The notes under the pieces were generated by a model. The model made no database searches and was not told where the DNA came from. It saw nothing but the letters and a program-made list of their open reading frames with translations. From Thermoplasmata archaeon (GTDB taxonomy: Archaea > Thermoplasmatota > Thermoplasmata > Lutacidiplasmatales > UBA184), in contig JAJYXQ010000032.1 of NCBI GenBank assembly GCA_021796385.1, positions 1-64,000 of the forward strand: DNA of 64,000 nucleotides, given 5' to 3'. Position numbers and translations under genes: made by a program. Shown piece after piece: positions 31,617 through 60,232 of this stretch (its first letter is position 1; each line of letters starts with the position of its first letter).

Positions 31617-31638
31617 TCCTGTGCCCTTCCCTTACTTG

Positions 31639-34330: not shown

Positions 34331-34687
34331 ATGGCGTGCATAGCTAAACTTCTCGAAAACCTGCGACCCGAAGTCGAGAGTGGACTGAAGCCTTACCTCG
34401 GAGGATTCATCGGAGCAGTCATTCGCACCTACCTTCCTCAAACCTGGGTGTTCGTTACGGAAACTGAAGCGGCTACCTTCTACGTGGCTTGTTCTGGAGA
34501 CACCGTTGTGTATCCCCAGGCCGCAGATCGACCCGATGTCACGATCGTAGTCGATCACGCCGTAATTTTTTCCGCCCTTTCTACTCGGGATTCTAGTCTG
34601 GTGCCAGCGGGAAGGAGGGAGGTTCGTTTCCAGACCCAGAAGGGCCGGACCGCCTTCAATTTCTTGAGGAGCCGGTTTGGATTGTAG
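34331..34687 (+). CDS. SCP2-like small protein
   Basis: A 118-residue protein resembling the sterol-carrier-protein-2 fold: 'PDVTIVVDHAVIFSAL' followed by 'REVRFQTQKGRTAFNFLRSRFGL', the usual SCP2 strand-helix ending. Such domains bind lipids or act as accessory domains. The start ATG at 34331 has 'aaaggtgg' upstream; a GTG at 34325 is an alternative. It is divergent from the regulator gene and precedes a surface-protein gene by 8 bp, so the two may form an operon. Confidence 0.55.
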   Translation: MACIAKLLENLRPEVESGLKPYLGGFIGAVIRTYLPQTWVFVTETEAATFYVACSGDTVVYPQAADRPDVTIVVDHAVIFSALSTRDSSLVPAGRREVRFQTQKGRTAFNFLRSRFGL

Positions 34688-36991: not shown

Positions 36992-37020
36992 GAGATATTT
37001 AAGCAGTATAGATTTCTATA
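36992..37020 (-). promoter_or_regulatory. Promoter with palindromic operator, copy 1
   Basis: Read on the minus strand: ATAGAAATCTAT, four bases, then CTTAAATATCTC, then the ATG at 36966. The same two blocks with the same 4-bp spacing occur before the secretion operon at 49777-49802. On the plus strand the operator is TATAGA-TT-TCTATA (37007-37020), a perfect inverted repeat with a 2-bp spacer. Confidence 0.7.
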
Positions 37021-43300: not shown

Positions 43301-46300
43301 TACTCGTCCACCGACTGGGAACCAGTACGACGTGATTGCTGGGTCGGTATAAACGATGAAAGCTACGGAGTGATTTGCACTTCCTCCTCCGGTATCATTT
43401 GCAAAGACTGTCACGGTGAAGGTCCCTGTAGCCGTTGGTGTGCAAGGGAGTCTGCTGGAGTTTGCAGTAGAGCAACCTGAGGGTAGACCGAGGTAAGTGT
43501 ATGTGTAGATGCCTGTTCCCCCACTGGCATTGGCGTAGAGGAGTAGGGTCTCATGCATGTCCAATTGAGACCTGTTGACCTGCAACGAAACGATGGGTGC
43601 GGAGGTCACCACGAAACGGGTGGGTGCGGAGGTCACCGTGTATCCGTTGGAATCTTTCACCGTCACCGCAACATAGCTCACCGTTTGCTGGGTCGGGGTA
43701 CAGGAGACCGTGCTTGAATTGACCGAAGCGCATCCCGTGCCTGTCGGAAGACCCGCCCAAGAGTAGGAGTAGATACCGGTACCACCGTAAGGGTTGGCAA
43801 TGAACGTGACCACCGTTCCAATGTCGGCGGTGGGATTAGTACTAGACGGTGAGGGTGCTAAGGGATCTGACAGTACGTTCACCAAGGGTGCAGTGGTCAT
43901 CGGAGAACCAAAGTTGTTCCAGTCAACCACCGACAAGGTTGGAGACAGGGTAGTGGCCACTGAGATATCGCACCGCTCGTAGTACTGATTCCCCGAGGTC
44001 GAGTTCTTGGCTCCCTGACAACCCATAGACGGGAGGCCACTCCAAGTGTAGTTGAAGCCGCTCCAGTTCGTGAACGGACCGCCATAGCCCCCGTTCACCG
44101 TCGCATTGATCCAGAAGATCTGCCCCTCGTCTGCCGAAGTTCGCGAGGCCGAAATCGAAACCGTGGGGTCACTCCAAACATTGACTTGCGCATAGGCGAA
44201 TTCCGTGGAGTACGCCCACTGAGAGGTGTAACCGTTCGAGTCGGTAACGGACACTTCTGGAATCTCTCCACCGAGAATGGTCTGGGTGCACTTGACTGAG
44301 GATGTCGTAAGCCCGGTGCAGTAGGCCGATGGTGGTGGCTGGTTATTGTAGGTATATCTCCACGAGTAGGTGAAACCTCCACTACCTCCGCTCTCTGTGG
44401 CGTTGTACCAAGCCACTTGGCCGATGTCGTAGTTCTCCCTCGGACCGATCGTGATGCCCGTGATGCTGGGGTCCGTTGACAGGGTGAGAGAAGTTGTTCC
44501 TGTTGCGGTGACAGCGTAGTTGTTGCTATCCACCACCAAAACGGTTGGTGTAAACGTTCCACTTGTTGTAGGAGTGCACTTGACCGAAGGGACTGTCTCC
44601 TGTTGTACGGATGGGCACCCTGTCGGAAGGTGGCTCCATGTGAAAGTGTACCCATTGAGACCTGGATAGCCCCCAGTTACCGTGGCGTTGAACCAGACCA
44701 CCTGATTCTCGTCAGCGGCCGTCCGAGACGGGATGATTGAAGTTACGACGGGATCCGAGAAGGCACCCACTGATGGGGCGGTGACCGCTGGACTAGTGAC
44801 ATCATTCGAATCCGTCACCGTGAGGGTTGGGCTGAACGTGCCGGTGGTCTGCACAGTGCATTTCACGGAATCAGTGGTCGTGCCCGCACATCCAGAACTT
44901 GGTAGGTTGCTCCATGTGTAGGTGATCACTCCATATCCTCCCGACACTGTTGCATTGAACCAGACGGCCTGATTCACATCGACTGTTGACCGTGAGCTTG
45001 TAATGACGGATATCGTTGGGTCTGGGGAGACGGTCAGCATGCCGTATGTTCCGGCGGTCTTTCCATCGGCATCCATCACCCACGCGTGTACTGTGTAGGT
45101 CCCCGGCGAGCTGGCGGTACATGCCACCTTGTCGATAGTAGTGTACGGAGGGACCTCTCCACTCGGTCCTGAGATCGCTGACGGGCACGAGTTGAAGTAC
45201 TGGTCGAGGGAACCATCTTCCGAGTTTACAAACCAAAGGTACTGATACGGAGAAGTCCCACCGATCGGTGTAGCAACAAAGGAAAGCGCTTGACCGCTGT
45301 CTCGCTCACTGGCCATCGAGAGTGAGACCGAGGGCAAGGGGTTCACCGTGAAGGTGAAGGTGAAGGTGCTCTCTATCGCATTCCCGTTTGAGTAGTCTAC
45401 ATACAAGTCTGCCGTGTAGGTTCCGCTGGTTGCGGAGCTACAATCGGTCCAAGAGTCACCGGGGTCTCCACCAGAACCGCTGCCCGAGCCATAAGTACAA
45501 CCAGAAGGGAGCCCGGCCCAAGTGTACCAATAGAATATTCCACCGTTCGTCTGCTGATTGATGGTATCGGACGTGGGGAGTGAAGACAGGTTGTAGACCA
45601 CTCCAACCGTGACCTGAGTAGCGCCTGTAGTCATTGCGAGGTCACTGTAAACAGTGATCCAGTCGGTGGCGCTGGCCTCTTCCCCACCGCATGTGCATAG
45701 GATATCCCCATAGACATGAAACTGGCCGGACTGGGTGGGAGTGCAGGAGAACTGTGCGGCGTCCTGGGAGGTACAACCACCCGGGAGGTTCCCCCAGTAC
45801 CAGTAGTCACCAGTCGGGAGGGTGCAGCCACTCGCGGAGAATGTCACTGGTTGACCCACAAAATCCCCCACGGGACTAGCCGATACTTCAAGTGACCCGC
45901 AGACCAGCGGGTGTATTGACAGGGATATTTTCGCATGCCGCGGGGTGCCGAGATTTCCGGACTGGTTCTGGGAAGGTGAAAGAGGGGGTTCGGTGATGTT
46001 CTGTGTAAAGGACGGCCTTGCGGGGTCAGGGGCGGGCTGAACAAGGACCCTCACTGGAGAGTTCGTTGAAGAATGGGTTTCGGGGATCACTGCCTTACCA
46101 GATGGTGAAACTTCGCTGAGGTTTCGGGCATGAGCAGGAATCGTCGTCCCGACGCTTGCGGGTCTAGGTTCCGAGGTGCTCTGGGGAGAAATTTTGGTGA
46201 CGAGGGCTGTGGTGTGGGAAGCTGTTGGACCCAGATTTGCGACCTTCACTCCATAGAAGGGTGTGGACGGGAAGACAAAGATTCCACCCATCAGGAGGAT

Positions 46301-46357
46301 TGACAGGGTCAGGATTGAATGCAGGCGCGGACCTGGTCGTTCTCTCAAAGTGTACAT
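40322..46357 (-). CDS. Giant PKD-repeat surface protein with cytoplasmic winged-helix-like tail
   Basis: A 2,011-residue protein. Residues 10-30 form a signal/anchor helix ('SILTLSILLMGGIFVFP'). About 1,700 residues of PKD/Ig-like repeats follow; at least nine of the first repeats carry a paired-cysteine pattern ('LPxGC ... CTPT ... DSNG'), later ones are cysteine-poor with 'VTITDGAG'-type endings. A membrane helix lies at about 1783-1805 ('FLLVVVAMVVAFAAILAFVEL') and about 205 cytoplasmic residues follow, with a winged-helix-like segment ('AALVHQVTSMTGATDATVRT' and a basic wing). The start ATG at 46357 is 5 bp after the upstream stop. It may sense or bind partner cells and signal inward (inference). 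Confidence 0.78.
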   Translation of the reverse strand: MYTLRERPGPRLHSILTLSILLMGGIFVFPSTPFYGVKVANLGPTASHTTALVTKISPQSTSEPRPASVGTTIPAHARNLSEVSPSGKAVIPETHSSTNSPVRVLVQPAPDPARPSFTQNITEPPLSPSQNQSGNLGTPRHAKISLSIHPLVCGSLEVSASPVGDFVGQPVTFSASGCTLPTGDYWYWGNLPGGCTSQDAAQFSCTPTQSGQFHVYGDILCTCGGEEASATDWITVYSDLAMTTGATQVTVGVVYNLSSLPTSDTINQQTNGGIFYWYTWAGLPSGCTYGSGSGSGGDPGDSWTDCSSATSGTYTADLYVDYSNGNAIESTFTFTFTVNPLPSVSLSMASERDSGQALSFVATPIGGTSPYQYLWFVNSEDGSLDQYFNSCPSAISGPSGEVPPYTTIDKVACTASSPGTYTVHAWVMDADGKTAGTYGMLTVSPDPTISVITSSRSTVDVNQAVWFNATVSGGYGVITYTWSNLPSSGCAGTTTDSVKCTVQTTGTFSPTLTVTDSNDVTSPAVTAPSVGAFSDPVVTSIIPSRTAADENQVVWFNATVTGGYPGLNGYTFTWSHLPTGCPSVQQETVPSVKCTPTTSGTFTPTVLVVDSNNYAVTATGTTSLTLSTDPSITGITIGPRENYDIGQVAWYNATESGGSGGFTYSWRYTYNNQPPPSAYCTGLTTSSVKCTQTILGGEIPEVSVTDSNGYTSQWAYSTEFAYAQVNVWSDPTVSISASRTSADEGQIFWINATVNGGYGGPFTNWSGFNYTWSGLPSMGCQGAKNSTSGNQYYERCDISVATTLSPTLSVVDWNNFGSPMTTAPLVNVLSDPLAPSPSSTNPTADIGTVVTFIANPYGGTGIYSYSWAGLPTGTGCASVNSSTVSCTPTQQTVSYVAVTVKDSNGYTVTSAPTRFVVTSAPIVSLQVNRSQLDMHETLLLYANASGGTGIYTYTYLGLPSGCSTANSSRLPCTPTATGTFTVTVFANDTGGGSANHSVAFIVYTDPAITSYWFPVGGRVAYANESLALEINFTGGIAPYSNCIDAPPAWPAGCVNGLGGSSLLLPDYQPYSTAGTYMVVTNITDSTGWVSTLRFNESVYWPLNVSIPVIPLVHQGTQANVTFTLFQNHGAPPMEWWLNDSTRGMSLCGPVAVPSYGTQSCSFVPNWNGTDTLNLTVRDGLHSRLFVPFSYQVVSDLGSLTLSAQAGSYSAVQGGTLQDEVGATTTFIASYVGGSSPYTCTLTQNGSGTIALWSSSTSSCSTTYTWTHVGTYTLDLTVKDSFGGVGGTARQWLIVDVTAPVSVTSIAPAQTNLDAQVIDNISAKTTGGLTPYSFVWDFGNGATKTTNQPWVTYAWPSPGTFTVKVTITDGAGASSTLSTSVQVIADPAVKVMSMVDGPISTSGITSGGSTTLPSGTTASFNLTFSGGTRPYSVVWKLNGTTVNSTAIFNLWTNFSLSWPSVGNHSLSVTISDSEGQVSTFTLSVKVIVDMVGPVTLTISRSVVDSGMWDNATASATGGWAPFTYDWLISAVSGNRWINGSVNALDATWTTSGSYSITTMVTDAFGYRASETTKLTVNAVPTAPCAPQIVSGIPMAGNALTFSLNCVSGGTGPLSYSWGLGANHQVTTAPQATVIFHQAASYEISVNVTDALGEMADSKVLTLGTIPPSIDNATYEQVSLSHNTTSNGTAYHLELEFVLQTSDTDGSVTGYRYSTNESNLSSLPWIPLSERVANLTLTGSAIQQLFIQVIDNYNRTSSPYTLVLNLTTPPSGKGPTGSSGQGTDWGFTFLLVVVAMVVAFAAILAFVELRKRRRSGGGPAMTTANSSDSGVAKAIEDHLKQNPNEEEAALVHQVTSMTGATDATVRTQLSILSETHKIEKSENGGTTRYTNAGGEVSREELARMGMITDTMLSTIRSETPVTGRRLKEVLKPYNLGEGEIRNYLLDMRTEIAWDPGADFGDFDSVVFRAMPSTPPTPRVEVEVDESALPKFLNKDAPTQPLGSKRHGKRSPVA

Positions 46358-46362
46358 TCTGT

Positions 46363-46935
46363 TCACCTGGGCAACGGCCGCGATAGGGGTGAAACGACCA
46401 ATTTCTGCTTCGTGGTCGCTTCCAATTCGTTGAGCGATGGCCACACCCACTTGCCCTTGATGACCGGCTTCGCAAGGTAGACATGTCCGACCTCTCGGGG
46501 TTCGAAGGCCGCTCCCTTAACCTCCGCTTCAACATAGGCAAGGTACTCGCTCTGCGGGGCCACAAAGGCAATAGGGTCGAAGCTTTCGAATCCTTTCGCC
46601 CCCTTCTTGCGCACATCCAGCTCAAGGTGGCTAGCGACCTTCTCGTTGATACGGATCGCGTTGTGCGGATTGATCTGGCAAATCGAGACCACGTCGTACA
46701 TCTCCCGCTGGAGGATCTCCTGGGAATTGTGCGATGGAACGATCCTCAAGCGCCCAGGCCCCCGGTTCAGGAAGGCCAGGGTGCGGAGGTGATGGGGTAG
46801 CTTCTCGATCACGTCTTCCCGACATCCTATCAATTGGGCCACCTCGTAGGGAATCGAGGTATACATCCAGCTGGTCGTCGTGGCCTTCAACACCGTCCAC
46901 TCATCTTGTCGGGGCATAGGAATCGAGGGGGACAT
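46363..46935 (-). CDS. Hypothetical protein, possible AbrB-like regulator
   Basis: A 190-residue protein encoded directly upstream of the giant surface protein in the same operon. Two segments, 'WMYTSIPYEVAQLIG' and 'INPHNAIRINEKVASHLELD', resemble the swapped-hairpin AbrB/SpoVT half ('RIPKxVAxxLGL'), suggesting two AbrB-like halves and DNA binding. The match is weak. The ATG at 46935 is preceded by the shared palindrome at 46969-46980, so it could be the regulator that binds it. Confidence 0.45.
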   Translation of the reverse strand: MSPSIPMPRQDEWTVLKATTTSWMYTSIPYEVAQLIGCREDVIEKLPHHLRTLAFLNRGPGRLRIVPSHNSQEILQREMYDVVSICQINPHNAIRINEKVASHLELDVRKKGAKGFESFDPIAFVAPQSEYLAYVEAEVKGAAFEPREVGHVYLAKPVIKGKWVWPSLNELEATTKQKLVVSPLSRPLPR

Positions 46936-46968: not shown

Positions 46969-46980
46969 ATAGATATCTAT
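46969..46980 (-). promoter_or_regulatory. Palindromic operator ATAGATATCTAT, copy 2
   Basis: A perfect 12-bp palindrome 34-45 bp upstream of the ATG at 46935 and identical to the copy before the secretion operon (49777-49788). It is flanked by AT-rich DNA ('ttataaagg' on the plus strand) that could hold the TATA box. Operator function is inferred from recurrence. Confidence 0.65.
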
Positions 46981-47141: not shown

Positions 47142-49124
47142 CTACGAAGAATCGTTATCTATCGCTCGCAGGATTCTATAAGCGGCACTCTCATCCGTCC
47201 CTTGATCGAGAAGCTTCTTTGATTCCTCGGAGAGCCTCGCCTTGAATTTTGTTAGCTTGTCGGAAGTTACTGATGCGAATCGGTTCCCGTCAATCAAGTT
47301 TACCTGCGACCGGTCAAAACGAGAGAACGAATCCCACACTGCGTATCCAAAGGCGATGGTGGCCATAGCGGCCTCGGCGCCGCCAGGAACTTCTTGGATA
47401 GTGTCCTCTGGAATGTTCCACATTTGCATCACCAATTGGGCAATCGGAGCCGAGGCACCCACCACACCTCCAAAAATCGCGCCGAGCAAGGCCCCCAGGA
47501 GCATCCCTGCTGGCCCCCCTATCGCCCCAAGAATGGCGCCTGTAGCGAGTCCTGCGGCCGCGCCTCCGGGAGCTCGGGTAACAAGCTTGCGAACCTGCTT
47601 CGTACGAGGAGTAACCTTGGTAGACTTTTTGGTTGTCTTGGACAATACCGACGCAAAGGTGTCCCGAATTGCCGTTTCAACTTCACCGCGTACCTTGGAA
47701 CCTCCCACCTCGTAGTCAATACCCAGACGAATGACCAGTCCAGTCAAGAGAACCTTATGGATCGGAACTCCGACCTCAGGAACCACCTGATGCGGTTTCA
47801 CGGTTGAAGCGCGAGCAGCCACTCGAAGGATAGCATCCTGAATCAACCGGTTCCGGCTGAGTTGATGTTGCCGAACAAGCATCTCGTTGAACGTAGCAAC
47901 TGCATTCTCGGAAAGCTGAAAGCAGACCGCATTGACTAGACTGTCCAAAGCAATCGGTTTTCGATTTCCCCCTTTGGGCTTCGCAGCAACGGCTACGAAA
48001 TCCACGAATGCACGCTTCTTCAGGTCGAGGCGAATGTTCTCTATTGAGTTTTCGTTGTCAAGAAGATCTCTCTTGTTTCCAGCGAGAACGACCGACGGAC
48101 ATCTAGCTCTGACTTCATTCAGGAACTCGAAGTCGGAACGTTTGAAACCGCCCGCAAGGTCAAAGACCAAGATGACCACCACTGGAACCTTAGCATAATC
48201 CAGTTGGGAGCACATCCCCAACGTCCTGTTCTTTTGCGAATCGATATCGACTACAGGAATACTAGACGTACTGGAGTTCTTGATTGTTGAAGCTAGGCCA
48301 AGGAAAGACCGCGTGACTCGCTCATAGCGTTCATTCATTCCCCCAACTCCTGGGGTATCAATTATGGTAAGACCATTCTGCAAATGGATCCTAGCAATGG
48401 CTCCTGTCACGTCTGTGATTACCGCTGTGGGAACCACGTCGTCTCCGAAAAGTGCGTTTGCGATGCTTGACTTCCCTGTGTGGGTAGTTCCGACAAAGAC
48501 CAAGGTAGCCTCCGACCTTCCAAGGATTCCCTTGACTGACCTGAGAAGACTTGCTGAAAGCTCGCTCTTTGATACTGACATCCAGAACTCCTCGCCAAAG
48601 ACACGTCGCATGTAAGAGACTATCTGCTGCTCTTCAACGTCTCTTGGAGTCACTTCCTCGACGGGGCTGGCGAGACGCAAAAGGAATTGCCTTCGCGCGG
48701 CCATGCTGGTTGTATCAAAGAGCCCAGCGAGTTGGGCAAATGTGGAGACCAAGACGATTGAGTTCTCTTGCACAGCATGCAGATTCCTCAACTCTGCAGG
48801 AACCTCCGTACCAAGTAATATGACTCTGGACCCTGGGACCGTCACTCCGCGAGCGACTGCTATCACTCTCTGGATATCGTGAAGAGTAATTCTTCCGAAC
48901 TTTACCTCGACGTAAACAGGAGCACCACGGTAGCTGCCACCAAGGTCAAAACTTCGAAGCCCCGACTGAATTCTGACGTCTATCCCAAGTTCCCCTAGGA
49001 GCGCTTGGACAACCCCGAGCATCCTATTCTGGATTTGAGAGGGGTGTTTTCCGGAGGTGTAAGTTGGGTCCCCGGAAGACAATCCTACTAGCTCGGCGGT
49101 GAGCGCGTCGTGTCTGTCGTGCAT
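47142..49124 (-). CDS. PD-(D/E)XK nuclease-GTPase fusion with glycine-zipper segment
   Basis: A 660-residue three-part protein. Residues 30-130 show a restriction-endonuclease-like core, with Asp60 in 'LRSFDLGG' and Glu73/Lys75 in 'VYVEVKFGR'. Residues 205-400 form a GTPase: P-loop 'GTTHTGKSS' (212-220), 'DTPGVGG' (256-262) and 'NKRD' (350-353). After a charged region comes a glycine-rich hydrophobic stretch (about 525-575, 'GLATGAILGAIGGPAGMLLG') that could insert into a membrane or oligomerise. The gene starts on the base next to the stop of the upstream nuclease gene. The architecture suggests an antiviral or conflict protein. I know of no described system with this exact combination. Confidence 0.72.
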   Translation of the reverse strand: MHDRHDALTAELVGLSSGDPTYTSGKHPSQIQNRMLGVVQALLGELGIDVRIQSGLRSFDLGGSYRGAPVYVEVKFGRITLHDIQRVIAVARGVTVPGSRVILLGTEVPAELRNLHAVQENSIVLVSTFAQLAGLFDTTSMAARRQFLLRLASPVEEVTPRDVEEQQIVSYMRRVFGEEFWMSVSKSELSASLLRSVKGILGRSEATLVFVGTTHTGKSSIANALFGDDVVPTAVITDVTGAIARIHLQNGLTIIDTPGVGGMNERYERVTRSFLGLASTIKNSSTSSIPVVDIDSQKNRTLGMCSQLDYAKVPVVVILVFDLAGGFKRSDFEFLNEVRARCPSVVLAGNKRDLLDNENSIENIRLDLKKRAFVDFVAVAAKPKGGNRKPIALDSLVNAVCFQLSENAVATFNEMLVRQHQLSRNRLIQDAILRVAARASTVKPHQVVPEVGVPIHKVLLTGLVIRLGIDYEVGGSKVRGEVETAIRDTFASVLSKTTKKSTKVTPRTKQVRKLVTRAPGGAAAGLATGAILGAIGGPAGMLLGALLGAIFGGVVGASAPIAQLVMQMWNIPEDTIQEVPGGAEAAMATIAFGYAVWDSFSRFDRSQVNLIDGNRFASVTSDKLTKFKARLSEESKKLLDQGTDESAAYRILRAIDNDSS

Positions 49125-49706
49125 CTAGTGTATCCCCCAAACTCCAGAGAGCTCGCTAGCAACCACCACGGCGAACACTCGCCCTCTGAGCATATCCTGT
49201 TCGTCAAGGTTCAGGGAAGGCTCCCCCACGGACTCATAGAGAGAACAGAGTTCTTCCGACGAATGCGCTATTCTCGGGCTCGGCATGCGCGTTGGTAGGA
49301 GGGGAGAAACGAACGCAAAGAGCCAATCTTCCCCAGCATTCGTTGAGACCTGGTCCACCACCTGCCGCACCCTACCAAGGAAATCCCTGAATCCTCTATC
49401 GATGTAAGAGCTGTCGTAACTGGCCTTGGTCTCGACCACCAAGTGACCGTGTTTCTCTCCCGTTTCCCTAGGGCGGTGGTGAAAGTGGAGGTCGAAGAGA
49501 ACACTTGAGCCATTCACAGGGAATGTCAACATGCTGGGGCTGTCCTGCGCCTTGGCCAGAAGGGACCAGTAAGGGATTCCACTGCCTATCTCGGGCACAA
49601 TAGATTCGATGAAACGAGTTACGAGTTCGTTGTAACTTGCCGCTATAGCGGCTGGAAGTTCTCCGCCAGGCGTGGAATACCACCAGTCTTGGAGAGTCGC
49701 CCGCAC
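49125..49706 (-). CDS. PD-(D/E)XK nuclease-like protein, partner of the GTPase
   Basis: A 193-residue protein with a nuclease-like active site: Asp72 in 'SVLFDLHFHH' and Glu92/Lys94 in 'GHLVVETKASY'. The GTG start at 49706 is the only in-frame start before an upstream stop. The stop codon abuts the ATG of the nuclease-GTPase gene, so the two are one operon. It may be a guide, regulator or second nuclease of a two-gene system. Its promoter must lie in the 118-bp gap shared with the divergent secretion operon. Confidence 0.6.
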   Translation of the reverse strand: MRATLQDWWYSTPGGELPAAIAASYNELVTRFIESIVPEIGSGIPYWSLLAKAQDSPSMLTFPVNGSSVLFDLHFHHRPRETGEKHGHLVVETKASYDSSYIDRGFRDFLGRVRQVVDQVSTNAGEDWLFAFVSPLLPTRMPSPRIAHSSEELCSLYESVGEPSLNLDEQDMLRGRVFAVVVASELSGVWGIH

Positions 49707-49776: not shown

Positions 49777-49802
49777 ATAGATATCTATAACCCTTAAATA
49801 TC
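49777..49802 (+). promoter_or_regulatory. Secretion-operon promoter with palindromic operator, copy 3
   Basis: The palindrome ATAGATATCTAT (49777-49788) is followed by four bases and the TATA-containing block CTTAAATATCTC. The ATG at 49825 lies about 28 bp after the TATA centre, so the transcript is probably leaderless. The same arrangement with the same spacing occurs on the minus strand at 36992-37020. An operator placed just upstream of TATA suits an activator, or a repressor that blocks TFB. Confidence 0.72.
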
Positions 49803-49824: not shown

Positions 49825-50259
49825 ATGACGACCAACACCATCGGCAAAGAAGAGAAGCGAAAGGGCGAACGTACGACCTTGAGGATGCTACGGAGCGTGA
49901 CGATACCACTGGTGGCGGTCCTGCTCTTGGGACTGGCATTCCCGGGCGGGGCATTGGCGGCCTCGCCGCACGGGACAACGGTCTCGGCGGCGACGAGCTG
50001 CAACGGCAACTCGACGTGCGACCTCGACTCGACCTTGAACAACATACAGTATTTCCTCATCGGGGTCGGGGTTCTCATCGGGGGCATCATGTTCGCACTC
50101 TTCGGCATCCAGCACATGGCCGGGGCCGTGGAGGAGATGCCGCCCGAGAAGCGGCTCCAACGGCGCCACCAGTTCATGACCCTGATCGTGGGGCTGGTGA
50201 TCGTCTCAACGAGCGTGGTTCTCGTCCACGTGGCGCAGGGCCTGATCGTCACGTCGTAG
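49825..50259 (+). CDS. VirB2/TrbC-like small membrane protein (possible pilin)
   Basis: First gene of the secretion operon, 144 residues. It has a signal-like N-terminal helix after a basic start (residues 24-46, 'SVTIPLVAVLLLGLAFPG'), then two membrane helices ('NIQYFLIGVGVLIGGIMFAL' and 'FMTLIVGLVIVSTSVVLVHV') separated by a short basic loop. This signal plus two-helix layout is the VirB2/TrbC pattern, the pilin of type IV secretion. Sequence similarity is too low to be sure; position before VirB6- and VirB4-like genes supports it. Confidence 0.62.
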   Translation: MTTNTIGKEEKRKGERTTLRMLRSVTIPLVAVLLLGLAFPGGALAASPHGTTVSAATSCNGNSTCDLDSTLNNIQYFLIGVGVLIGGIMFALFGIQHMAGAVEEMPPEKRLQRRHQFMTLIVGLVIVSTSVVLVHVAQGLIVTS

Positions 50260-50295
50260 AATTCCCGACGAAATCTGAACATCCCAGGGGGTTGC

Positions 50296-50892
50296 ATGCG
50301 GGCCACCATCTGTGCTCTGTCCTTAGCACTGATCCTCATCGTGGGGGCATCCCCCGTCCCAGTGTCGGCCACTGCTCCCGGTGGGAAGGGGAGCATCACC
50401 TTCTCTGTCGGAACCTTGTCCTGTGAGAACGCCACCGCCCGTGTCAACCTCTCCAGTGTCAGTGTCTCGATCCTCTACCTGAACACCAGCGACTCCTTCT
50501 CAAACGACACCAACGATTCCAACACGGGAAGCTACAGTTGGAACACAGGGGCGAACTATACGGAGAACATCAGCCTCTCGGGAGCGATCTCGATCCTCCT
50601 CGACGCCAGTCCTCCATCCCAGTGCCCCTGGGCGGGGAACGCCTGGCTGAACTGGTCCAATGTGAGTGACGGGAGCGTCGTTGAGGTGGCCATCACCTTC
50701 CCCCCCGGAAACGGTGGCTTGGGCAACGGGAGTTGGACCACTGGCAATTCCACTGTGAAGGTTTCCCCTCCGGCACCAGCCTTCCCCTACTTTCTCGATA
50801 TTGCCGGACTGGGACTCTTCTGCATCTTCCTCTACTGGACCCTCAAGGGCTGGCGAAAGCTCACCACGCTCGTCAGTGGAGATGCGGCATGA
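50296..50892 (+). CDS. Secreted, C-terminally anchored protein of the secretion operon
   Basis: A 198-residue protein with a signal peptide ('ICALSLALILIVGASPVPVS'), a 130-residue exported domain with ten or more N-x-S/T sites and two cysteines, and one C-terminal membrane helix ('YFLDIAGLGLFCIFLYWTL'). Nothing in it resembles a known family. In the operon it may be a mating-pair or pilus-associated component of the cell surface. Its 3' end overlaps the next ATG. Confidence 0.6.
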   Translation: MRATICALSLALILIVGASPVPVSATAPGGKGSITFSVGTLSCENATARVNLSSVSVSILYLNTSDSFSNDTNDSNTGSYSWNTGANYTENISLSGAISILLDASPPSQCPWAGNAWLNWSNVSDGSVVEVAITFPPGNGGLGNGSWTTGNSTVKVSPPAPAFPYFLDIAGLGLFCIFLYWTLKGWRKLTTLVSGDAA

Positions 50893-51068
50893 TGAGCGGG
50901 CTGGTCAGCCCCCCTCTCCCTTCCAACGGGGGCATGGACACTTGTGAGGACTGTGGGTTTTTGATCTTCTGGCAGGATGAGCAGCCGCTCTACTGCGTTG
51001 ATTGCGCCAAGGGGCCTCTTTGCTGGGATTGCTACGAGACCCATGCCCCCGGGGAGAAGGAGCCTTGA
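50889..51068 (+). CDS. Small zinc-finger protein of the secretion operon
   Basis: A 59-residue protein with six cysteines in three CxxC pairs: 'TCEDCGF', 'YCVDCAKGP' and 'LCWDCYE', probably binding one or two zinc ions in a B-box-like fold. The start codons ATGATG at 50889 overlap the previous stop, and its own TGA overlaps the next gene's TTG start, so it is embedded in the operon. It may be a chaperone or regulator of the secretion apparatus. It is too short for usual automated calling. Confidence 0.6.
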   Translation: MMSGLVSPPLPSNGGMDTCEDCGFLIFWQDEQPLYCVDCAKGPLCWDCYETHAPGEKEP

Positions 51069-52324
51069 GCTTCTGGGGCGATTTCTGGTCGTCCCTCTGG
51101 GGAGCCCTCATGGCCCCATTGGGGGTCGCCGTGCAGACGGAGATGGGTTGGGTGGTCGGGTCCATTGACTACGTTCCTAGCCTGGACAACTCGGCCGTCA
51201 AGTCACTACTCGAGGTGACCTACTCCGTCTTCCTGGCCTCCCTCGGGATCATCATCGCGGCCATCGGCATCCTCTTCGTCCTCGCCCCCATAGCGGAGAA
51301 GAAGTTCCAGTACCGGCACCTGCTGACCAAGCTGGTCTTCGCCCTAGTCCTTGGGAGTTCCGTGATGCTCATCGGGGATTTCTGCATCGCCCTCTCTGGA
51401 GCCCTGGCCCAGACCATCCTCCCCCCGGGGACGAGCATCCCCTGGTCGAACGCCATCACCGGAGGGACGGGCCCCCTCACCCTGTTCTTCTACTTCGTCA
51501 TGATGATCATGCTCTTCATGCTCCTCGTGGAGCAGGGCGTCCGCATCCTGATGATCTTCTTCGCCGCCGTCATCCTCCCCTGGGGGTTCCTCCTCTGGAG
51601 CTTCCCGAAGACCCAGTCCTACGGGAAAAAGATGATCAAGATGTTCTTCGAGTGGACCTTCCTCGCGGTATTCGTCGCCATCGTGCTCGAACTCATGGTC
51701 CTCTTCATCCAGGGGGGAGGCACCGGAAACTCCTGGCTCGACTCGTTCATCGTGATCGGAGCCATTGCGCTCGCCATCGGGATGCCCAAGGTGATGACCG
51801 ACACCGGAGGGGCCGTCTCGGGCATCGGGGCTTCCGTCATGGGCGCAGGGGCAGGGATGGGCTCAGCAGAGACCTTCGGAGGTTCCATGGGGATGGCTGG
51901 AGGCATGCCTGGGATCGGAGGAGCTGGTGGAGGCGGCGGTGGACTCTTCAGCGGGGCAGGAAGGGCCATCGGCTCCGCAGCCCGCGGCCTTGGGACCATG
52001 GCTCCCATCGGGGCCGCTGCTGCTCTGGGAGGAGCCGTTGCCTATGTGGGCGGAAAGGCAATTGGTCGGGCAGTCGGCAAGAGGGTCGGAGGCCCCCTGA
52101 AGCAGGCCTGGAGCGCGCACAAGGCGGCGAAGGCAGGTGCCGGTGCAACGGGCGCCGACCCACCAGGCGGTGGAAGTTCAGGCCCGATACATCCGTTCTT
52201 CAACCTCGACAACAAGGAGTCCGGTACCGGGAGCCCAAGGCAGAGGGTTGCGATCGATTACCACTCCATGGTCAATTCGCTCCGAAGAAGCGGTGCCCTG
52301 CCCGCTACCCGGCCAGAGGGATAG
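51065..52324 (+). CDS. VirB6/TrbL-like polytopic channel protein
   Basis: A 419-residue integral membrane protein with about six helices in the first 270 residues ('VFLASLGIIIAAIGILFVLA', 'LTLFFYFVMMIMLFMLLVEQ', 'GVRILMIFFAAVILPWGFLL' and others), followed by a glycine- and alanine-rich cytoplasmic tail of 150 residues. This is the layout of TrbL/VirB6 inner-membrane channel proteins in conjugation systems. The start is placed at the TTG at 51065, which overlaps the zinc-protein stop (TTGA); no in-frame ATG occurs before the first helix. Its stop is 3 bp from the VirB4 start. Confidence 0.7.
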   Translation: MSFWGDFWSSLWGALMAPLGVAVQTEMGWVVGSIDYVPSLDNSAVKSLLEVTYSVFLASLGIIIAAIGILFVLAPIAEKKFQYRHLLTKLVFALVLGSSVMLIGDFCIALSGALAQTILPPGTSIPWSNAITGGTGPLTLFFYFVMMIMLFMLLVEQGVRILMIFFAAVILPWGFLLWSFPKTQSYGKKMIKMFFEWTFLAVFVAIVLELMVLFIQGGGTGNSWLDSFIVIGAIALAIGMPKVMTDTGGAVSGIGASVMGAGAGMGSAETFGGSMGMAGGMPGIGGAGGGGGGLFSGAGRAIGSAARGLGTMAPIGAAAALGGAVAYVGGKAIGRAVGKRVGGPLKQAWSAHKAAKAGAGATGADPPGGGSSGPIHPFFNLDNKESGTGSPRQRVAIDYHSMVNSLRRSGALPATRPEG

Positions 52325-52327
52325 AAG

Positions 52328-54907
52328 ATGATCGAAGAAGAAGAGAGTGCGAGCTGCACGGTGAGCTTCCCCCCCAAGGTGGGGTCCGAGACCATGAGGA
52401 TGGGCCCCTTGCCGGCGAACCAGGCCGTGACCCTGATCCTGAGTGCGGCCGTCGGGGGAGGAGCGTCCTACGCCCTCCTTGCCCTCTTCCCCCACGACCT
52501 GATTGCCATCCTCCTGGCCACGACCATCTTCCTCCTCTCGGTCGGTGCTGGTGCGGCCCTTGCCTTCGTGATGCGGCACGGAATGACGCTTCCCCGCTAT
52601 CTCTTCCTCAAGTGGAGGTTCGACAGGGAGGCCCACCACTTCAGCGGCGTGGCCGAGACACGACGTTTCGTCCACTTGGCCGATGTCACCTCAGACACCC
52701 TGGTCCTCCCCCACGACACGTACGTGAGGGTGGTCGAGGCGAGCGGTGTGAACTTCGACCTCCTCGGCGTCGACGAGCAGAAGGAGCGCATCCTGTCCTT
52801 CGCCGGTTGGTTGAACGGCCTCGACTTCCCGGTTCAGGTCGTTGCCCGACCCGACACCTTCCACTCGGTCCCCTACCTCAAGGACCTCGTCCAGCGGGAG
52901 ACCGAGGAAGTCTCTCCGGTGGTCAAGACTCAGATCCAGAGCTTCGCCGTCTTCTTCCACGAGACCGTTTCCCAGGCCCTGGACCGGCGCTTCTATGTCG
53001 TTACCCGGGTTCGGCTCCCGGACGCCATTCCGAATCTCTACAAGAACGGGCAAGCCCCTTCCCCAACCAAGAAGGCGAAGGTGGCCAAGGAGATACTCGA
53101 CCTCCGGGCCCGGTCCCTCGTGGAGGGACTCGTGTCGATAGGATTGGAGGCACGGTCGCTGGAGGGGGAGGACCTGGTGACGCTCCTCCGGAACTACTAC
53201 CACTTCGGATGCAAGAACGAGTCCCGGGGAACCCCAGCGAGCATTGTCGATGCCCTGGCTCCCGCGCGGGTTGACGTCTACCCCGACTATCTGGTCTGGG
53301 GTTCGGAGCACGTCCGCGTGCTGCGTGTGGAGAACTATCCCTCCAGCTTGCCCTTCGGGTGGCTCACCCAATTGCTGACCGACACGGAGCACCGGGTGGA
53401 TGTCGTCCTGCACATGGAGCCCCTTTCCCAGGAGGCGGCGGTCACCATGCTCAAGCATGAGACCGTTCGCCTCCAAGTGGAGCTCATGGGACGGCAGAGC
53501 AAGGGCTCCACCGACACCATCTCGCTGGAGAACCAGCTGGGCATCTTCGAAGGCGTCCGTGCCGCCCTGGTGCGGCAGGAAGAACGCCTCTTCTCTACCG
53601 GGCTCTACATCTCCCTGAGGGGGAAGACCTACGAGGAACTCGAGACGCTGACGGCCCGGGTCCAGGGGTATCTCCGGAGCCTGATGGTGAGGGCGGTCGC
53701 ACCCAGGTTCCAGCAAGCGCAGTTACTCCGGTCCACCCTGCCCTTCGGGAGGGACTTTCTGGGCGATACCTACCTCTTGCATTCCTCGGCCATCTCGACG
53801 ATGTACCCCTTCGTTAGCGGCATGCTTGTGCAGCCCGGGGGAACTCTCTACGGACTCAACGAGGCCAACGGTTCACCGGTTATCTTCGACCGCTACAGCC
53901 TGGAGAACTACAACACGGCCATTTTCGGGATATCGGGTTCGGGGAAGTCCTACGCCTCCAAGCTGGAGATCTTGCGCCAGATGATGGTGAGCCCCGAGCT
54001 CCGCTCCTTCATCATCGACCCCTTGGGGGAGTTCGGGGACCTCACGGAGTCCCTGGGTGGCTCCGTTCTCACCCTCGGGGACGGTCTGACCCACCTCAAT
54101 CCGCTGTGGATTGGGAAGGAACCATCCGAGCGGGTCCGGTTCGCCATGGAGTTCTTCCAGGCGACCCTTGACCTCACCAAGGAGGAGGTCGCCCTCTTGG
54201 ACGGCACCCTGCACCGGATGCAGGTGGAGAAGCCGGACGAGTTCACTCTCGGGGACCTTCTGAAGGAACTGGATGGCCTGGGATCCGTCCACGCCGACCG
54301 GCTCCGAATCATTCTCCAGCCCTACGTACATGGGTCGTTCCAGTGGCTGAACCACGCGACTGACATCGACCTTTCTGCCCGAGTGGTCAGCCTTGACCTC
54401 AAGGGGCTCTCCGGGGACCTCTTCACCCCCGTCATGCTCCTCCTGCTCGACTTCATCCTCACGGAGTGCCGACAGGACTACGAGCGAAAGCTCGTGGTCG
54501 TGGACGAGGCTTGGCACCTGATGGACCGGGAGACTTCGGCGGTTGCCCTCGCCAACATGACCCGGCACTCCCGGCACTACCATGCCGGCATCACTCTGAT
54601 TTCCCAGTCGGCGGCGGACTTCTTGGACAACGACCACGGCCGGGTCGCGATGACCAACTCCGCGATGATCACCCTCATGCGCCACCGTTCGGTCTCCGCG
54701 GCCATGCGGGACTACTTCGCCATGACCCCCGCAGAGGTAAGCTACGTGAAGCACACCAAGACCGGGAAGGACGTGGGGTACGCGACCGGGCTCCTCATCA
54801 CCGGCACCACCCACACGCCTTTGCGCATCGTCTCCAGCGAGATGGAGCACGAGATCATCACCACCAACCCAGAGGAATTACGGGAACGGGTGGCGCAGGA
54901 GGCCTGA
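52328..54907 (+). CDS. VirB4-like secretion ATPase with N-terminal VirB3/PrgI-like membrane domain
   Basis: Motor ATPase of type IV secretion, 859 residues. Residues 30-90 form two membrane helices of PrgI/VirB3 type ('LPANQAVTLILSAAVGGG', 'LIAILLATTIFLLSVGAGAA'), fused to the ATPase as in many Gram-positive and archaeal systems. The VirB4/TraC body follows, with Walker A 'GISGSGKSYAS' near residue 535, 'IIDPLGEFGDL', Walker B 'LVVVDEAWHLMD' near 725 and the sensor 'ITLISQSAADFL'. All ATPase motifs are intact. The 3' end overlaps the coupling-protein start (TGATG). Confidence 0.88.
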   Translation: MIEEEESASCTVSFPPKVGSETMRMGPLPANQAVTLILSAAVGGGASYALLALFPHDLIAILLATTIFLLSVGAGAALAFVMRHGMTLPRYLFLKWRFDREAHHFSGVAETRRFVHLADVTSDTLVLPHDTYVRVVEASGVNFDLLGVDEQKERILSFAGWLNGLDFPVQVVARPDTFHSVPYLKDLVQRETEEVSPVVKTQIQSFAVFFHETVSQALDRRFYVVTRVRLPDAIPNLYKNGQAPSPTKKAKVAKEILDLRARSLVEGLVSIGLEARSLEGEDLVTLLRNYYHFGCKNESRGTPASIVDALAPARVDVYPDYLVWGSEHVRVLRVENYPSSLPFGWLTQLLTDTEHRVDVVLHMEPLSQEAAVTMLKHETVRLQVELMGRQSKGSTDTISLENQLGIFEGVRAALVRQEERLFSTGLYISLRGKTYEELETLTARVQGYLRSLMVRAVAPRFQQAQLLRSTLPFGRDFLGDTYLLHSSAISTMYPFVSGMLVQPGGTLYGLNEANGSPVIFDRYSLENYNTAIFGISGSGKSYASKLEILRQMMVSPELRSFIIDPLGEFGDLTESLGGSVLTLGDGLTHLNPLWIGKEPSERVRFAMEFFQATLDLTKEEVALLDGTLHRMQVEKPDEFTLGDLLKELDGLGSVHADRLRIILQPYVHGSFQWLNHATDIDLSARVVSLDLKGLSGDLFTPVMLLLLDFILTECRQDYERKLVVVDEAWHLMDRETSAVALANMTRHSRHYHAGITLISQSAADFLDNDHGRVAMTNSAMITLMRHRSVSAAMRDYFAMTPAEVSYVKHTKTGKDVGYATGLLITGTTHTPLRIVSSEMEHEIITTNPEELRERVAQEA

Positions 54908-57900
54908 TGCCCTACCATCGCATCCTCCACCACCAGCCCGTCCCCGCCCAACGGCGGGAAAGGGTCCCCCCCGAGGTCCACCTTCTGCTCAAGAGCCCGA
55001 TCCCTGAGGGGGGAGTGGAAATCCACCTGCATCCCGATGGCCGCATCGACTGGTTGCTCTCGGCCCCTTCCGTGCAGGCCCTTTCTCTGTTTGCGAACTC
55101 TGTGGAGCGGACCTTTCCTGGGGCTGGGGTGTATCCCGAGCCTGTTCCTTGTGCCCTGCCCGGTCACCCTGCTGATCACTGGACCTTTGCATGGGCAAGA
55201 CAGCGGACGAGACACTGGACACCATTGGACATTGCCAGGGAGCATGACTATGCCGACTCTCTCGTCACGGCTCTTTCCTCCCCCCTCGCCAGGAGCCACG
55301 AGGTCGTGGTCCAGATCCTTTTTCGGGCCACGGGGGCCTGGGAGGAGAACCCGCACCTCTTCACCGCCCCCCGGGAGAAGCTCCTCCTCTATCATCAGGG
55401 ACTCGACGTCTCCATGACGGGCTCCTACACCAAGAGGGTCCCGACCCAATGGGACCAAGAGCAGCACCGGACGCTCTCCCAACGCTTGAACGAGCCCTCA
55501 TACCACTTGGAGGTGAGGGCGGCGGCCTATGGACCCGAGGCGAAGACGATCCTGACCCATTGTGTAGGAGAGGCTTACCTGAAACAGTTCCTCTCCGGGA
55601 GGTGGCGGAGCCTTGAGTTCGTCAAGGAGGGGAAGAAGGTCGAGTTCGACCAGGCCTTCCGTTCCCACAGCTTTGGTGCCTTCGTCAATGGCAGGGAGCG
55701 CCGGGACATCTCACGAAGCGAACTGGCCTCCGTCATCTGCCCACCATGGTCCCGCCCGAATGCCGCACTTCAATACTACGTCGAAGACCAGGAGATCACT
55801 GCCCTACGCGAAGTGCTCTCCTCGCGGGGAACTGAGTCCAGTTCGACCCCCCCGTCTGCGTATCTGGCCAGCCTTGCGCCAAGAACCGTTGAGGGGGGTG
55901 GGCCCCCAAGGCGCTCGGGGGTCCTTTCCACCACGGGACGGTCACAGAACATCCCCAAGTTCCAACCATCGAACTTGCAGGAGGCCAGCCGCCAGTGGGT
56001 AGCGCTCGGAAAGACCTACCAGGGTGACCCGGTCTTCCTCTCGGAGACCCCGCCTTGGCATCACGCCGCCGTGCTGGGGGCGACGGGGACAGGAAAGTCC
56101 ACCCTGCTCCTCCAGTGGGCTCTGGAGGTCCTCCTCAAGAAACCCACATGGAACGTGATCCTGATCGACCCTCACGGGACCCTGGCCGAGGCCCTCAAGG
56201 GGCTCCTTCCTCCCGAGATCGCCTCGGACACGATCGAGCTCGACCCTTCTCGCCTCACCTACCGAGAGAACGGGATGGAGATGGTGGGCCTCCCGTTGAA
56301 CATACTGGCGCTCCCCGACCGGGAAACCATGGACGTTGCCGACCTCACGACGGCCCGCGACGTGATCGTGGACAACCTCGTCTACTTCGTGAAGACCATC
56401 TGGGGTCCCGATGTCTTCGGCCCTCAGATGGACCACAACATCTCGTCCCTGGCCTCCGGACTTCTCGAGATCCCCGGGACCAACTTGGTCGACATGTACT
56501 ACATCCTGACGAACTCTCAGGCCCGGTTGCGATTCTCCGAGCTGGTCCACACCGAAGGGATCCGGCAGTTCGTGCTGAACGAGCTCCCTCGTCTCACGAA
56601 CGTTCGCTACTCGCAGGACCGCGTCTCATCCACCCTCAATCGATTGGGGAAGATCACCAACAACAACCTCCTCCGCTTGACCCTTTGCCAGCGGGCGAGC
56701 CCAGTCGATTTCCGCACGCTCCTCAACCATCGCCTGGTCATCGTCAACCTCTCGAAGACGAAGATCGGGAACGAAGCATCTCGTTTCCTGGGGGCGATGG
56801 CCTTCGCCCGTCTCTGGCTTGCCGTCTTGCAGCGGGGGGTGACGGGCAGGCACACCGCGCTGTTCGTGGATGAGTTCCAGAACTTCGTGACCCCTAGCAT
56901 CGCCCATGTCCTGACGGAGGCCCGCAAGTTCGGCCTGCACCTCATCATGGCGAACCAGTACCTGGAGCAAATCCCGGACGAGATCCGTTCAGCGGTCATC
57001 GCCAACACCGACACCTGGGTCTTCTTCCGGATGGGGGTGGAGGATTCCCGGAGGGCAGCAGATATCACCCGTCCAGGTCGCAGGGGATGGACCGAGGAGA
57101 CACTGCGCGCCCTTCCCCCTTATCGGGCGCTCTTCGTCCAAGGGAATCGCTTGGAGATGCTAACCACCTTCCCTCCTGCGAAACCGGAACGAGACGTTGG
57201 AGAGGTCGATGCCATCGTGACCTCATCGACCCGACGTTACGCTGCGGAGGAGACCTCAGGAGCATCCCCCTTTTTGGTGGGCGATGAGCAGTGCCTTACC
57301 GTCCTCAGGGCCCTTCAGGATGGCCCAAGGACCCGTGTGGAACTGGGCCAGAACGTTCCTCTCCATCCGAACGAGATCTGGGATGCGATCCTTCGATGCC
57401 GACAGTTGGGATACCTCGACTTCGACCGAGAGAACCAGACGAACGTGCTTACCGAGAAAGGCCGTCAGCATCTGGACAAGGGAGGATGGAAGGGGGGTGG
57501 GGGTCCAAACCACGATGGATTGAAGGCACAGGTCGTGGTCTTCGTGGCGTCTCAGGGGTTCGGCCAAGCCCAGGAACCCGCGCAAGGCTCAAATTTGGAG
57601 GCTCCGGACCTCACCCACTTCGAGCACGGGGTCCTCATCAATGACGAGATCGAGACCACGGGGTTGAATCGCGATCAGGTTGTCAAGAACTTGGTAAAGT
57701 CGAGGGGGACACCAGTGCACTTCTTCGTTCCCGACCTCAAGGTGGCAGGGAATGTCTTCAGGCACCTTGTGGGGAAGACCGGCTACTCCGTGTTTGTCTG
57801 GACCGGTGTGAACTCGTTCCGCCGGGTGTCTCGAGATGAGATCAAGGAGGACGATGAGGTATCTCCCAATGTTGCCCAAGACTCAGTTCCGTCTGTTGCC

Positions 57901-58290
57901 GGCCAATTCGGAGGCTCTACCGAGGAGGGCCGCAGGGAAGTTTCTGAACCGGCCAGTCTTTCCCCTCCTCCGTCCGCTGGAGTGGAACGCAACACGGATG
58001 AGGAGGCGACGACGCAGGGAAGTGCTGACGTCGAAGGACCGAGCGGTCTCACTTACATGCGGAAGGAAGCCCTGGGCTTCTGTGACAGGTTGAAGCAGTT
58101 GGGGAAGGCCGTCGAGGTGGACCGCGAGCCAGCACTCTGGCTGAAAGACCTCCTCGTCTACTACGAAGGATGGGACGAGGCGAAGCTTGGGACCCTGTTG
58201 GGTCTCCTCGGCATTGGCACGAAGCGCGTGCGGCTCTCAGGAGAGCGCGGGTCCGTGTGTTTCCCGTGGTCTCCACGACCGGACATTTAG
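54907..58290 (+). CDS. VirD4/TraD-type coupling ATPase with possible C-terminal nuclease domain
   Basis: A 1,127-residue ATPase expected to bring DNA to the secretion channel. Walker A 'GATGTGKSTLLLQW' is near residue 391, 'LIDPHGTLAEAL' near 425, Walker B 'ALFVDEFQNFVTP' near 655, and 'GLHLIMANQYLEQIP' follows, all HerA/FtsK-VirD4 style. After the ATPase come a winged-helix-like part (about 805-865) and a segment with Asp901 ('APDLTHFEHG') and Glu914/Glu916 ('INDEIETTGLNRDQV'), which resembles a PD-(D/E)XK-type nuclease of the kind that carries ExE. The last 150 residues are a low-complexity linker and a helical domain. The ATG at 54907 overlaps the VirB4 stop. No relaxase gene is nearby. 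Confidence 0.82.
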   Translation: MPYHRILHHQPVPAQRRERVPPEVHLLLKSPIPEGGVEIHLHPDGRIDWLLSAPSVQALSLFANSVERTFPGAGVYPEPVPCALPGHPADHWTFAWARQRTRHWTPLDIAREHDYADSLVTALSSPLARSHEVVVQILFRATGAWEENPHLFTAPREKLLLYHQGLDVSMTGSYTKRVPTQWDQEQHRTLSQRLNEPSYHLEVRAAAYGPEAKTILTHCVGEAYLKQFLSGRWRSLEFVKEGKKVEFDQAFRSHSFGAFVNGRERRDISRSELASVICPPWSRPNAALQYYVEDQEITALREVLSSRGTESSSTPPSAYLASLAPRTVEGGGPPRRSGVLSTTGRSQNIPKFQPSNLQEASRQWVALGKTYQGDPVFLSETPPWHHAAVLGATGTGKSTLLLQWALEVLLKKPTWNVILIDPHGTLAEALKGLLPPEIASDTIELDPSRLTYRENGMEMVGLPLNILALPDRETMDVADLTTARDVIVDNLVYFVKTIWGPDVFGPQMDHNISSLASGLLEIPGTNLVDMYYILTNSQARLRFSELVHTEGIRQFVLNELPRLTNVRYSQDRVSSTLNRLGKITNNNLLRLTLCQRASPVDFRTLLNHRLVIVNLSKTKIGNEASRFLGAMAFARLWLAVLQRGVTGRHTALFVDEFQNFVTPSIAHVLTEARKFGLHLIMANQYLEQIPDEIRSAVIANTDTWVFFRMGVEDSRRAADITRPGRRGWTEETLRALPPYRALFVQGNRLEMLTTFPPAKPERDVGEVDAIVTSSTRRYAAEETSGASPFLVGDEQCLTVLRALQDGPRTRVELGQNVPLHPNEIWDAILRCRQLGYLDFDRENQTNVLTEKGRQHLDKGGWKGGGGPNHDGLKAQVVVFVASQGFGQAQEPAQGSNLEAPDLTHFEHGVLINDEIETTGLNRDQVVKNLVKSRGTPVHFFVPDLKVAGNVFRHLVGKTGYSVFVWTGVNSFRRVSRDEIKEDDEVSPNVAQDSVPSVAGQFGGSTEEGRREVSEPASLSPPPSAGVERNTDEEATTQGSADVEGPSGLTYMRKEALGFCDRLKQLGKAVEVDREPALWLKDLLVYYEGWDEAKLGTLLGLLGIGTKRVRLSGERGSVCFPWSPRPDI

Positions 58291-59900: not shown

Positions 59901-59948
59901 CTTCTCTTAGGAACAAAGAAGTTGGCTAACCTGTACGACTCGTCCATG

Positions 59949-60163
59949 TCCAGGGGGGTGGCCAACCCCTCAAGAACTGGCCAGGGGTATGGCCACGGTG
60001 GCCAGGGGGGTGGCCGCGGTCACCTCAGACCGTTTCCACGGTGGTGGAGATTGGCTGGTTCATGTCTCATGAGCCAATCCCTGCCTGTCCAGGGGGGTGG
60101 CCATTCCCAATAAGATATCGTTGTTTTCAGGGGGGTTGCGGCAGCCGTCCAGGGGGGTGGCCA
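59949..60163 (+). repeat. Direct repeats TCCAGGGGGGTGGCCA (iteron-like)
   Basis: Three exact copies of TCCAGGGGGGTGGCCA lie at 59949, 60088 and 60148, with partial copies at 59979, 60001 and 60127, all on the plus strand and unevenly spaced. No coding sequence covers them. Tandem iterons of this kind bind replication or partition proteins in plasmids; here an origin, a partition site or a transfer site are all possible. The unit is G-rich and could form G-quadruplex-like structures. Confidence 0.6.
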
Positions 60164-60232
60164 GCGCCGCGGCAGTCACCCGCCGAGCGCAGCGAAGCGG
60201 AGCGAGGCGACAGCTTGCCCACGGGAGGGGCC

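Follow-up and report, generated by a model that had tools for sequence, protein, structure and literature searches.

The 64,000-nucleotide stretch analyzed here (the window) lies at the start of a contig of 83,572 bp, JAJYXQ010000032.1, from a Thermoplasmata archaeon, and carries six genes for a type IV secretion system (T4SS) on the + strand at 49825-58290. The reading favored here, to which we give slightly better than even chances, is that this operon supplies the conjugation machinery of a 48.4-kb integrative and conjugative element (ICE) of Thermoplasmata, and that a nuclease fused to the coupling protein replaces the relaxase, both here and generally in archaeal conjugative plasmids. According to the proposed mechanism, the integrase would excise the element at a tRNA-Arg gene; the VirD4-like ATPase would then bind the element DNA through a winged helix, nick or cut it with a PD-(D/E)xK-like domain, and pump it to a membrane channel of the VirB6-like protein, the VirB3-VirB4 fusion and the pilin. 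With the fused nuclease in place, no stand-alone relaxase would be needed, and archaeal conjugative plasmids at large may work likewise.

That the element is an ICE is, judging from its sequence, almost certain: it has an integrase gene next to a tRNA gene, attachment (att) repeats with a corresponding empty site, and its own T4SS with VirB4 and a coupling protein. The tRNA gene is also present in G001, a near-identical genome whose sequence matches ours at 100% up to base 31600 and then departs from it; what follows in G001 is found in the window's contig at 80039-80090 and 81725-83572. The two att sites, the exact empty site and the element length of 48,438 bp follow from joining the G001 sequence with our contig in this way. 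The att sites are identical in 23 of 26 bases, counting one base beyond the 25-base core, and an exact 12-mer repeat search of the contig missed them because the repeat is imperfect; they were found via the empty site in G001. The GC content is 0.57 within the element and 0.63 in its left flank. The integrase matches the NCBIfam model recomb_XerA_Arch (1.3e-5) and a PHROG integrase (1.6e-5); integrases 49-56% identical to it adjoin VirD4/VirB4 genes at two other loci (L040 and L039), and one in G003 is 56% identical. Related elements of G003 and G016 lie at tRNA-Lys, start with the same terminal sequence CCCAAAAGGGTnTnAACnC, which occurs once in the window's own genome, and have adjacent integrase and VirD4 genes. 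The initial annotation of this DNA described a genuine operon, but it missed the enclosing ICE with its att sites and empty site. Two parts of the right-hand chromosomal flank that are adjacent in G001 are separated here by roughly 1.6 kb carrying a methyltransferase-like gene (contig C55, 80091-81724; L002), a second insertion.

The case for a fused nuclease comes from the C-terminal tail of the VirD4-like protein. The protein scores 23.0 bits against TraG-D_C (cut-off 22), relatives of it score 39.3 bits against TrwB_AAD_bind (cut-off 20.5), and it contains no hydrophobic segment and thus no N-terminal membrane anchor. The tail has the motif PD-x(n)-E-x-E...Q-x3-N-x2-K, here with P900-D901 and E914-x-E916, preceded by H869 and followed by conserved Q, N and K residues in the next helix. 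Eight ICE tails are 22-27% identical to that of the window (72% for one close copy), and their invariant residues include D112, E125, E127, Q135, N139 and K142 in tail numbering, where PD corresponds to protein residues 900-901 and E-x-E to 914-916; PD and ExE are kept in nearly all homologs. The AlphaFold2 (AF2) model of the tail has a pLDDT of 72 as a whole and of 80-91 in most of the nuclease-like region, with a confident winged helix-turn-helix (wHTH). Behind the winged helix the model has an alpha-beta-beta-alpha-beta order; the D precedes the first strand and ExE closes the second, as in PD-(D/E)xK enzymes. A Foldseek search of the PDB returned MarR-type winged helices and, for the remainder of the tail, Nt.BspD6I, Hjc, FokI, YaeQ and Cdn1 (E 0.008-0.04); unrelated methyltransferases, matched through their winged helix, were interspersed among these. 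The best figures were those for the nickase Nt.BspD6I (E 8e-3) and for Hjc (probability 0.97); we take the five named proteins to be PD-(D/E)xK proteins. In the literature searched, mostly without subscription journals, this domain on VirD4 is not mentioned. The T4SS of G001 (L033) is nearly identical in VirB4 (96%) and the VirB6-like protein (97%), but its VirD4-like protein is only 37% identical, and so the coupling protein is swapped as a whole between near-identical T4SSs.

A number of results weigh against a nuclease with this role. No Foldseek match of the tail has an E value below 0.001, and Hjc profiles match it without significance (probability 1.3%), although in the best alignment PD falls on GVD and ExE on ExK. 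The third catalytic residue is E instead of K, no Pfam or NCBIfam model recognizes the tail domain, and in plasmid-borne VirD4 from Thermococcus 33-3 and Sulfolobus the conserved His is missing. An ICE is expected to have a canonical relaxase and an origin of transfer (oriT); the former was not found, which holds for all known archaeal conjugative elements, and no oriT was identified, though no oriT search was made. On balance, the AF2 and Foldseek results and the motif register, no single one of these tests being significant alone, make a PD-(D/E)xK fold likely. Catalytic activity of the tail is predicted with somewhat less assurance, but still as the better bet. The candidate role of the tail, processing DNA for transfer instead of a relaxase, falls a little short of an even chance. 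More tentative again is the broad proposal that one polypeptide recognizes, nicks and pumps DNA in Thermoplasmata ICEs and in haloarchaeal, Sulfolobales and Thermococcus 33-3 plasmids, so that a relaxase would be dispensable.

Related archaeal elements all carry 300-400 extra residues behind the ATPase, whereas the tail is missing in the bacterial coupling-protein homologs examined, the Patescibacteria and Rhodococcus proteins stopping near the ATPase end. It was found by tblastn and hidden Markov model (HMM) searches in VirD4 of pYN01, pNOB8, pAH1, pING1, pHVE14, pRT2 and the Thermococcus 33-3 plasmid. Haloarchaeal plasmids have it as well, according to tblastn and an HMM search of 4135 open reading frames (Natrinema, E 4.6e-13 and 4.4e-12). 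The pNOB8 tail reads RPDLVAFP-x-AIAVEIESPNE-x-PEQVKRNMQK, and that of Thermococcus 33-3 reads KPDLIAIP-x-AIAIEIESPNE-x-EQIIRNSMKE. The latter plasmid (NZ_OX281346, Thermococcus nautili 33-3, 103 kb) is taken to be the reviewed pT33-3, since strain, size and organism agree. Mutation of the VirB4 and VirD4 genes of pT33-3 abolishes conjugation, according to the summary of Catchpole et al. 2023 given in PMC12857230, and so the protein bearing the tail is essential for transfer there. There is also a precedent for nicking by such a fold: MOBC relaxases are PD-(D/E)XK proteins that act without a covalent intermediate (PMC12857230), and thus a restriction-type nuclease can start conjugation. No MOBC relaxase match was obtained on the tail with Pfam or NCBIfam, no dedicated MOBC model being used.

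The strongest alternative, though an unlikely one, is that the element conjugates but that its DNA is transferred double-stranded or is opened by host enzymes such as HerA-NurA, with the tail serving only in DNA binding, or in partition or defence. HerA-NurA has been proposed as the source of archaeal single-stranded DNA by Beltran et al. (PMC9905601), transfer of double-stranded DNA has been suggested for Sulfolobus plasmids (PMC6563490), and the FtsK-like TcpA likewise speaks for this alternative. However, the active-site-like residues are the best-kept part of an otherwise diverged tail, and there would be no need for a mere binding domain to retain D, E and E.

Quite improbable is a second alternative, in which a canonical relaxase has escaped recognition, its gene lying in another part of the ICE or the enzyme being supplied in trans. 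Several open reading frames of the ICE have no family match, leaving it some room. Models PF03432, PF13814 and PF08751 were run on six genomes: nothing exceeded the cut-off in the window's own genome, no canonical relaxase was found among the ICE reading frames scanned, and the sole strong match in the six genomes was a TrwC/MobF protein of G001 (G001:C373:10212-11039; L188). That protein was rejected as the relaxase of the element because it is about 40% identical to proteobacterial MobF and comes from a bin that is 64% complete and titled 'bacterium', so that it is probably proteobacterial contamination. Moreover, archaeal conjugative plasmids have so far yielded no relaxase, as reviews up to December 2025 report (PMC12857230). 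The initial annotation had noted that no relaxase, VirB8, VirB9 or VirB10 was visible. This is borne out for all four, as far as canonical relaxases go; what escaped it is the candidate nuclease domain inside the operon's own coupling protein. Its appeal to the single membrane of the archaeal envelope is background knowledge and was not established. The MOB-suite typing in PLSDB gives 'relaxase MOB_Unknown' for pNOB8, pING1 and pHVE14.

The T4SS itself is, with high probability, one for DNA transfer (Table 1). All six reading frames were confirmed in the order first claimed, and Pfam matches above cut-off for the pilin, VirB4 and the VirD4-like protein uphold the description as a T4SS operon that includes a coupling ATPase. 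The genes do not all overlap, as had been stated: overlaps are real at three of the five junctions (ATGATGA at 50889, TTGA at 51065 and TGATG at 54907), but 36 bp separate the pilin and secreted-protein genes and 3 bp the VirB6-like and VirB4 genes. The pilin, the secreted protein, the VirB6-like protein, VirB4 and the VirD4-like protein co-occur in several divergent elements (VirB4 identity 47-53%), and because this set recurs, the operon is not a chance assembly. The palindrome ATAGATATCTAT upstream of the operon has a second copy at 46969-46980, upstream of the divergent gene at 46935 (0.01 expected by chance), and a copy with one mismatch at 37008-37019; it is possibly an operator, putatively shared by the T4SS operon and the divergent gene.

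Table 1. Features of the element and its T4SS operon. Positions are those of the window unless stated otherwise; aa, residues of the VirD4-like protein.
Feature	Position	Strand	Basis or remark
tRNA-Arg (TCG)	31522-31598	+	ARAGORN; integration target, 3' end = attL
attL core	31576-31600		att comparison
element-terminal sequence CCCAAAAGGGTnTnAACnC	31600-31618	+	directly after tRNA-Arg
in-window part of ICE	31601-64000	.	attL/attR and empty site in G001:C103
tyrosine recombinase/integrase	31621-33162	+	R...R...HxxxMxxRY pattern
palindrome ATAGATATCTAT, possible operator	49777-49788	.	just upstream of operon
VirB2-like pilin	49825-50259	+	PF18895 T4SS_pilin 4.4e-6, above cut-off
secreted protein, C-terminal membrane anchor	50296-50892	+	alignment of relatives, hydrophobic segments
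small zinc-ribbon protein	50889-51068	+	weak zf-B_box match
polytopic membrane protein in VirB6 position, TTG start	51065-52324	+	position, topology, conservation
VirB3-VirB4 fusion ATPase	52328-54907	+	Pfam/NCBIfam matches, structure match, tree
VirD4-like coupling protein	54907-58290	+	TraG-D_C, DUF87 above cut-off
N-terminal domain of VirD4-like protein	aa 1-350
Walker A of VirD4-like protein	aa 391
Walker B of VirD4-like protein	aa 652
winged helix of VirD4-like protein	aa ~790-860
PD-(D/E)xK-like domain of VirD4-like protein	aa ~865-975		followed by C-terminal domain
predicted nuclease domain	57514-57942	+	conservation, AF2, Foldseek
attR	contig 80014-80038, beyond window		att comparison

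The pilin aligns with Patescibacteria pilins encoded near VirB4 (hhalign probability 91%, E 9.5e-7) and has a homolog of 52% identity at another locus (L050). The secreted anchored protein is kept across related elements, where a Cys-rich ribbon is fused to its N terminus; here the zinc ribbon is encoded by a separate gene. The polytopic protein is present in all related elements whose sequence extends over this position, with 42-91% identity in the alignment. It has no Pfam match, nor do seven relatives of it, and hhalign gave no match to the polytopic proteins of Patescibacteria. Its AF2 model is poor (pLDDT 42), and the comparison with CedA/TedA is one of topology only. The VirB6 homology first claimed for 51065-52324 was therefore not established, the assignment going by six hydrophobic segments, position and conservation.

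The VirB4 protein exceeds the Pfam cut-offs for AAA_10, P-loop_TraG and TraC_F_IV, has its Walker A at residue 534 and Walker B at 722, and has a match (6.6e-23) in 4ag5, the solved structure of a Thermoanaerobacter VirB4. CagE_TrbE_VirB (PF03135) gives no match anywhere in the same genome, and for this reason VirB4 membership rests on the other models. A PrgI/VirB3 match at the N terminus (9.6e-4), though below the Pfam cut-off, supports the fusion that had been proposed and makes a VirB3 part likely; the protein has two N-terminal hydrophobic segments. Kinship to the MPF_FATA-type VirB4 is clear, at 252 bits against the CD1110 family model, which is short of the curated cut-off of 325 for membership; a VirB1-like wall hydrolase and VirB8, which characterize an MPF_FATA-type T4SS, were not found among the operon products in the Pfam scan. 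The tree, a check that the initial annotation had proposed, places the protein among archaeal VirB4 proteins, and not with the HerA repair helicases; its group (SH-like support 0.945) also holds haloarchaeal and Sulfolobus proteins and the chromosomal VirB4-like ATPases of Thermoplasmata. Full-length relatives (47-96% identity) are confined to five further genomes of this family, as would suit a mobile element. The named records with relatives are metagenome-assembled genomes of Thermoplasmata, the next relatives among species genomes are from Patescibacteria (about 30% identity, by pattern search), and an IMG/VR scan with VirB4 found none. Most genomes of the family also have a second, shorter VirB4-like ATPase (566-700 residues, about 30% identical), for example at G000:C33:2262-3839 (L041) and at further loci (L042-L047, L010-L032); at L044 it lies near a protein matching the VirB6-like profile of the ICE (E 2e-6). 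This shorter ATPase is a candidate for a domesticated Ced/Ted-like DNA-exchange system of Thermoplasmata.

Two further alternatives were weighed. It is very unlikely that the VirD4-like protein lies beside the T4SS by chance and acts as an anti-phage ATPase-nuclease of HerA type: the PADLOC model mad8 (5e-23) and HerA models do match it, the element bears defence cargo, and stand-alone copies without full VirB4 occur in G052, but its gene overlaps that of VirB4, the VirB4 linkage is found in all linked elements, and its homologs are the VirD4 proteins of experimentally conjugative archaeal plasmids. Least probable of all is protein delivery or Ced/Ted-like DNA import. The VirB2/VirB4/VirB6 set does resemble Ced/Ted, but the T4SS sits with a coupling protein in an ICE that has an integrase and an empty site, VirB4 reaches only 12.4 bits against the CedB model (cut-off 700), and a Ced/Ted role fits the shorter, chromosomal VirB4-like ATPase better.

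The favored reading, a conjugative module with a nuclease-tailed coupling protein, can be set beside several known systems. The conjugative plasmids of Sulfolobales (pNOB8, pING1, pHVE14, pAH1, pYN01) likewise have VirB4 and VirD4, no relaxase, and the wHTH and PD...ExE...QxxxN tail, but they are plasmids, and in pNOB8 the VirB4 and VirD4 genes are far apart. The plasmid of Thermococcus nautili 33-3 encodes a VirD4-like protein with the same tail, although the protein is 1370 residues long and its tail is 44% identical to that of pYN01. Haloarchaeal plasmids (Natrinema, Haladaptatus, Salinigranum) share the tailed VirD4 and a VirB4 of the same archaeal clade and differ in their accessory genes. 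Thaumarchaeal ICEs (PMC6563490) also have VirB4, VirD4, VirB6 and VirB3, no relaxase, and empty-site evidence, whereas their TFIIB, ParB and type IV pilus genes and their host phylum set them apart. The Patescibacteria T4SSs (PMC12102498) have a PF18895-type pilin, a VirB4 about 30% identical, a coupling-protein homolog in some cases, and mostly no relaxase; in contrast, they are chromosomal, without an integrase, with no VirB3-VirB4 fusion reported, and their coupling protein lacks the nuclease tail. The MOBC relaxases (TraX of pAD1, MobC of CloDF13) share the type of nicking predicted for the tail, but they stand alone, unfused to a coupling ATPase, and the likeness is without a sequence match. 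Finally, Ced/Ted import systems also combine a pilin, a channel and a VirB4-type ATPase in a one-membrane archaeon, but they are chromosomal and without a coupling protein of the ICE type.

Other genes of the element accompany this module. The defence cargo (contig 69426-79788; L001:9426-19788) consists of a UvrD-PDDEXK protein, a D12 methylase, a DndB-HEPN protein, a BglII-type restriction endonuclease and methylase pair, and a GHKL ATPase with a PF20553 protein. A 2042-residue PKD-rich surface protein (40322-46450, - strand), with a membrane segment and a cytosolic winged-helix-like tail, is a candidate mating adhesin; a relative of 36% identity is encoded beside the T4SS of locus L034. That locus also encodes, between VirB4 and VirD4 (L034:12082-12603), a small OB-fold-like protein (weak Pfam match, 0.11), possibly a single-stranded DNA-binding helper. 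A Dynamin/LeoA-like GTPase and a 193-residue protein (47142-49706, - strand) are 95-96% conserved beside the T4SS in G001:C45 (L046). Next to the integrase gene lies that of an HFX_2341/DUF6293 protein (33435-34331, - strand), kin of CARF-wHTH regulators (PF19810, 7e-24), and three 23-nucleotide repeats TGTCCAGGGGGGTGGCCA at 59947-60168 mark the edge of a very GC-rich stretch of the ICE (0.70 at 60-62 kb).

With its clear borders, the element is also of interest as an ICE from Thermoplasmata whose pilin is shared with Patescibacteria T4SSs. How DNA is prepared for archaeal conjugation is the question at stake, and a nuclease fused to the coupling protein would explain why no relaxase has been found. 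Because the catalytic residues can be named within a conserved tail, this question is testable in the existing genetic systems of Thermococcus and Sulfolobus.

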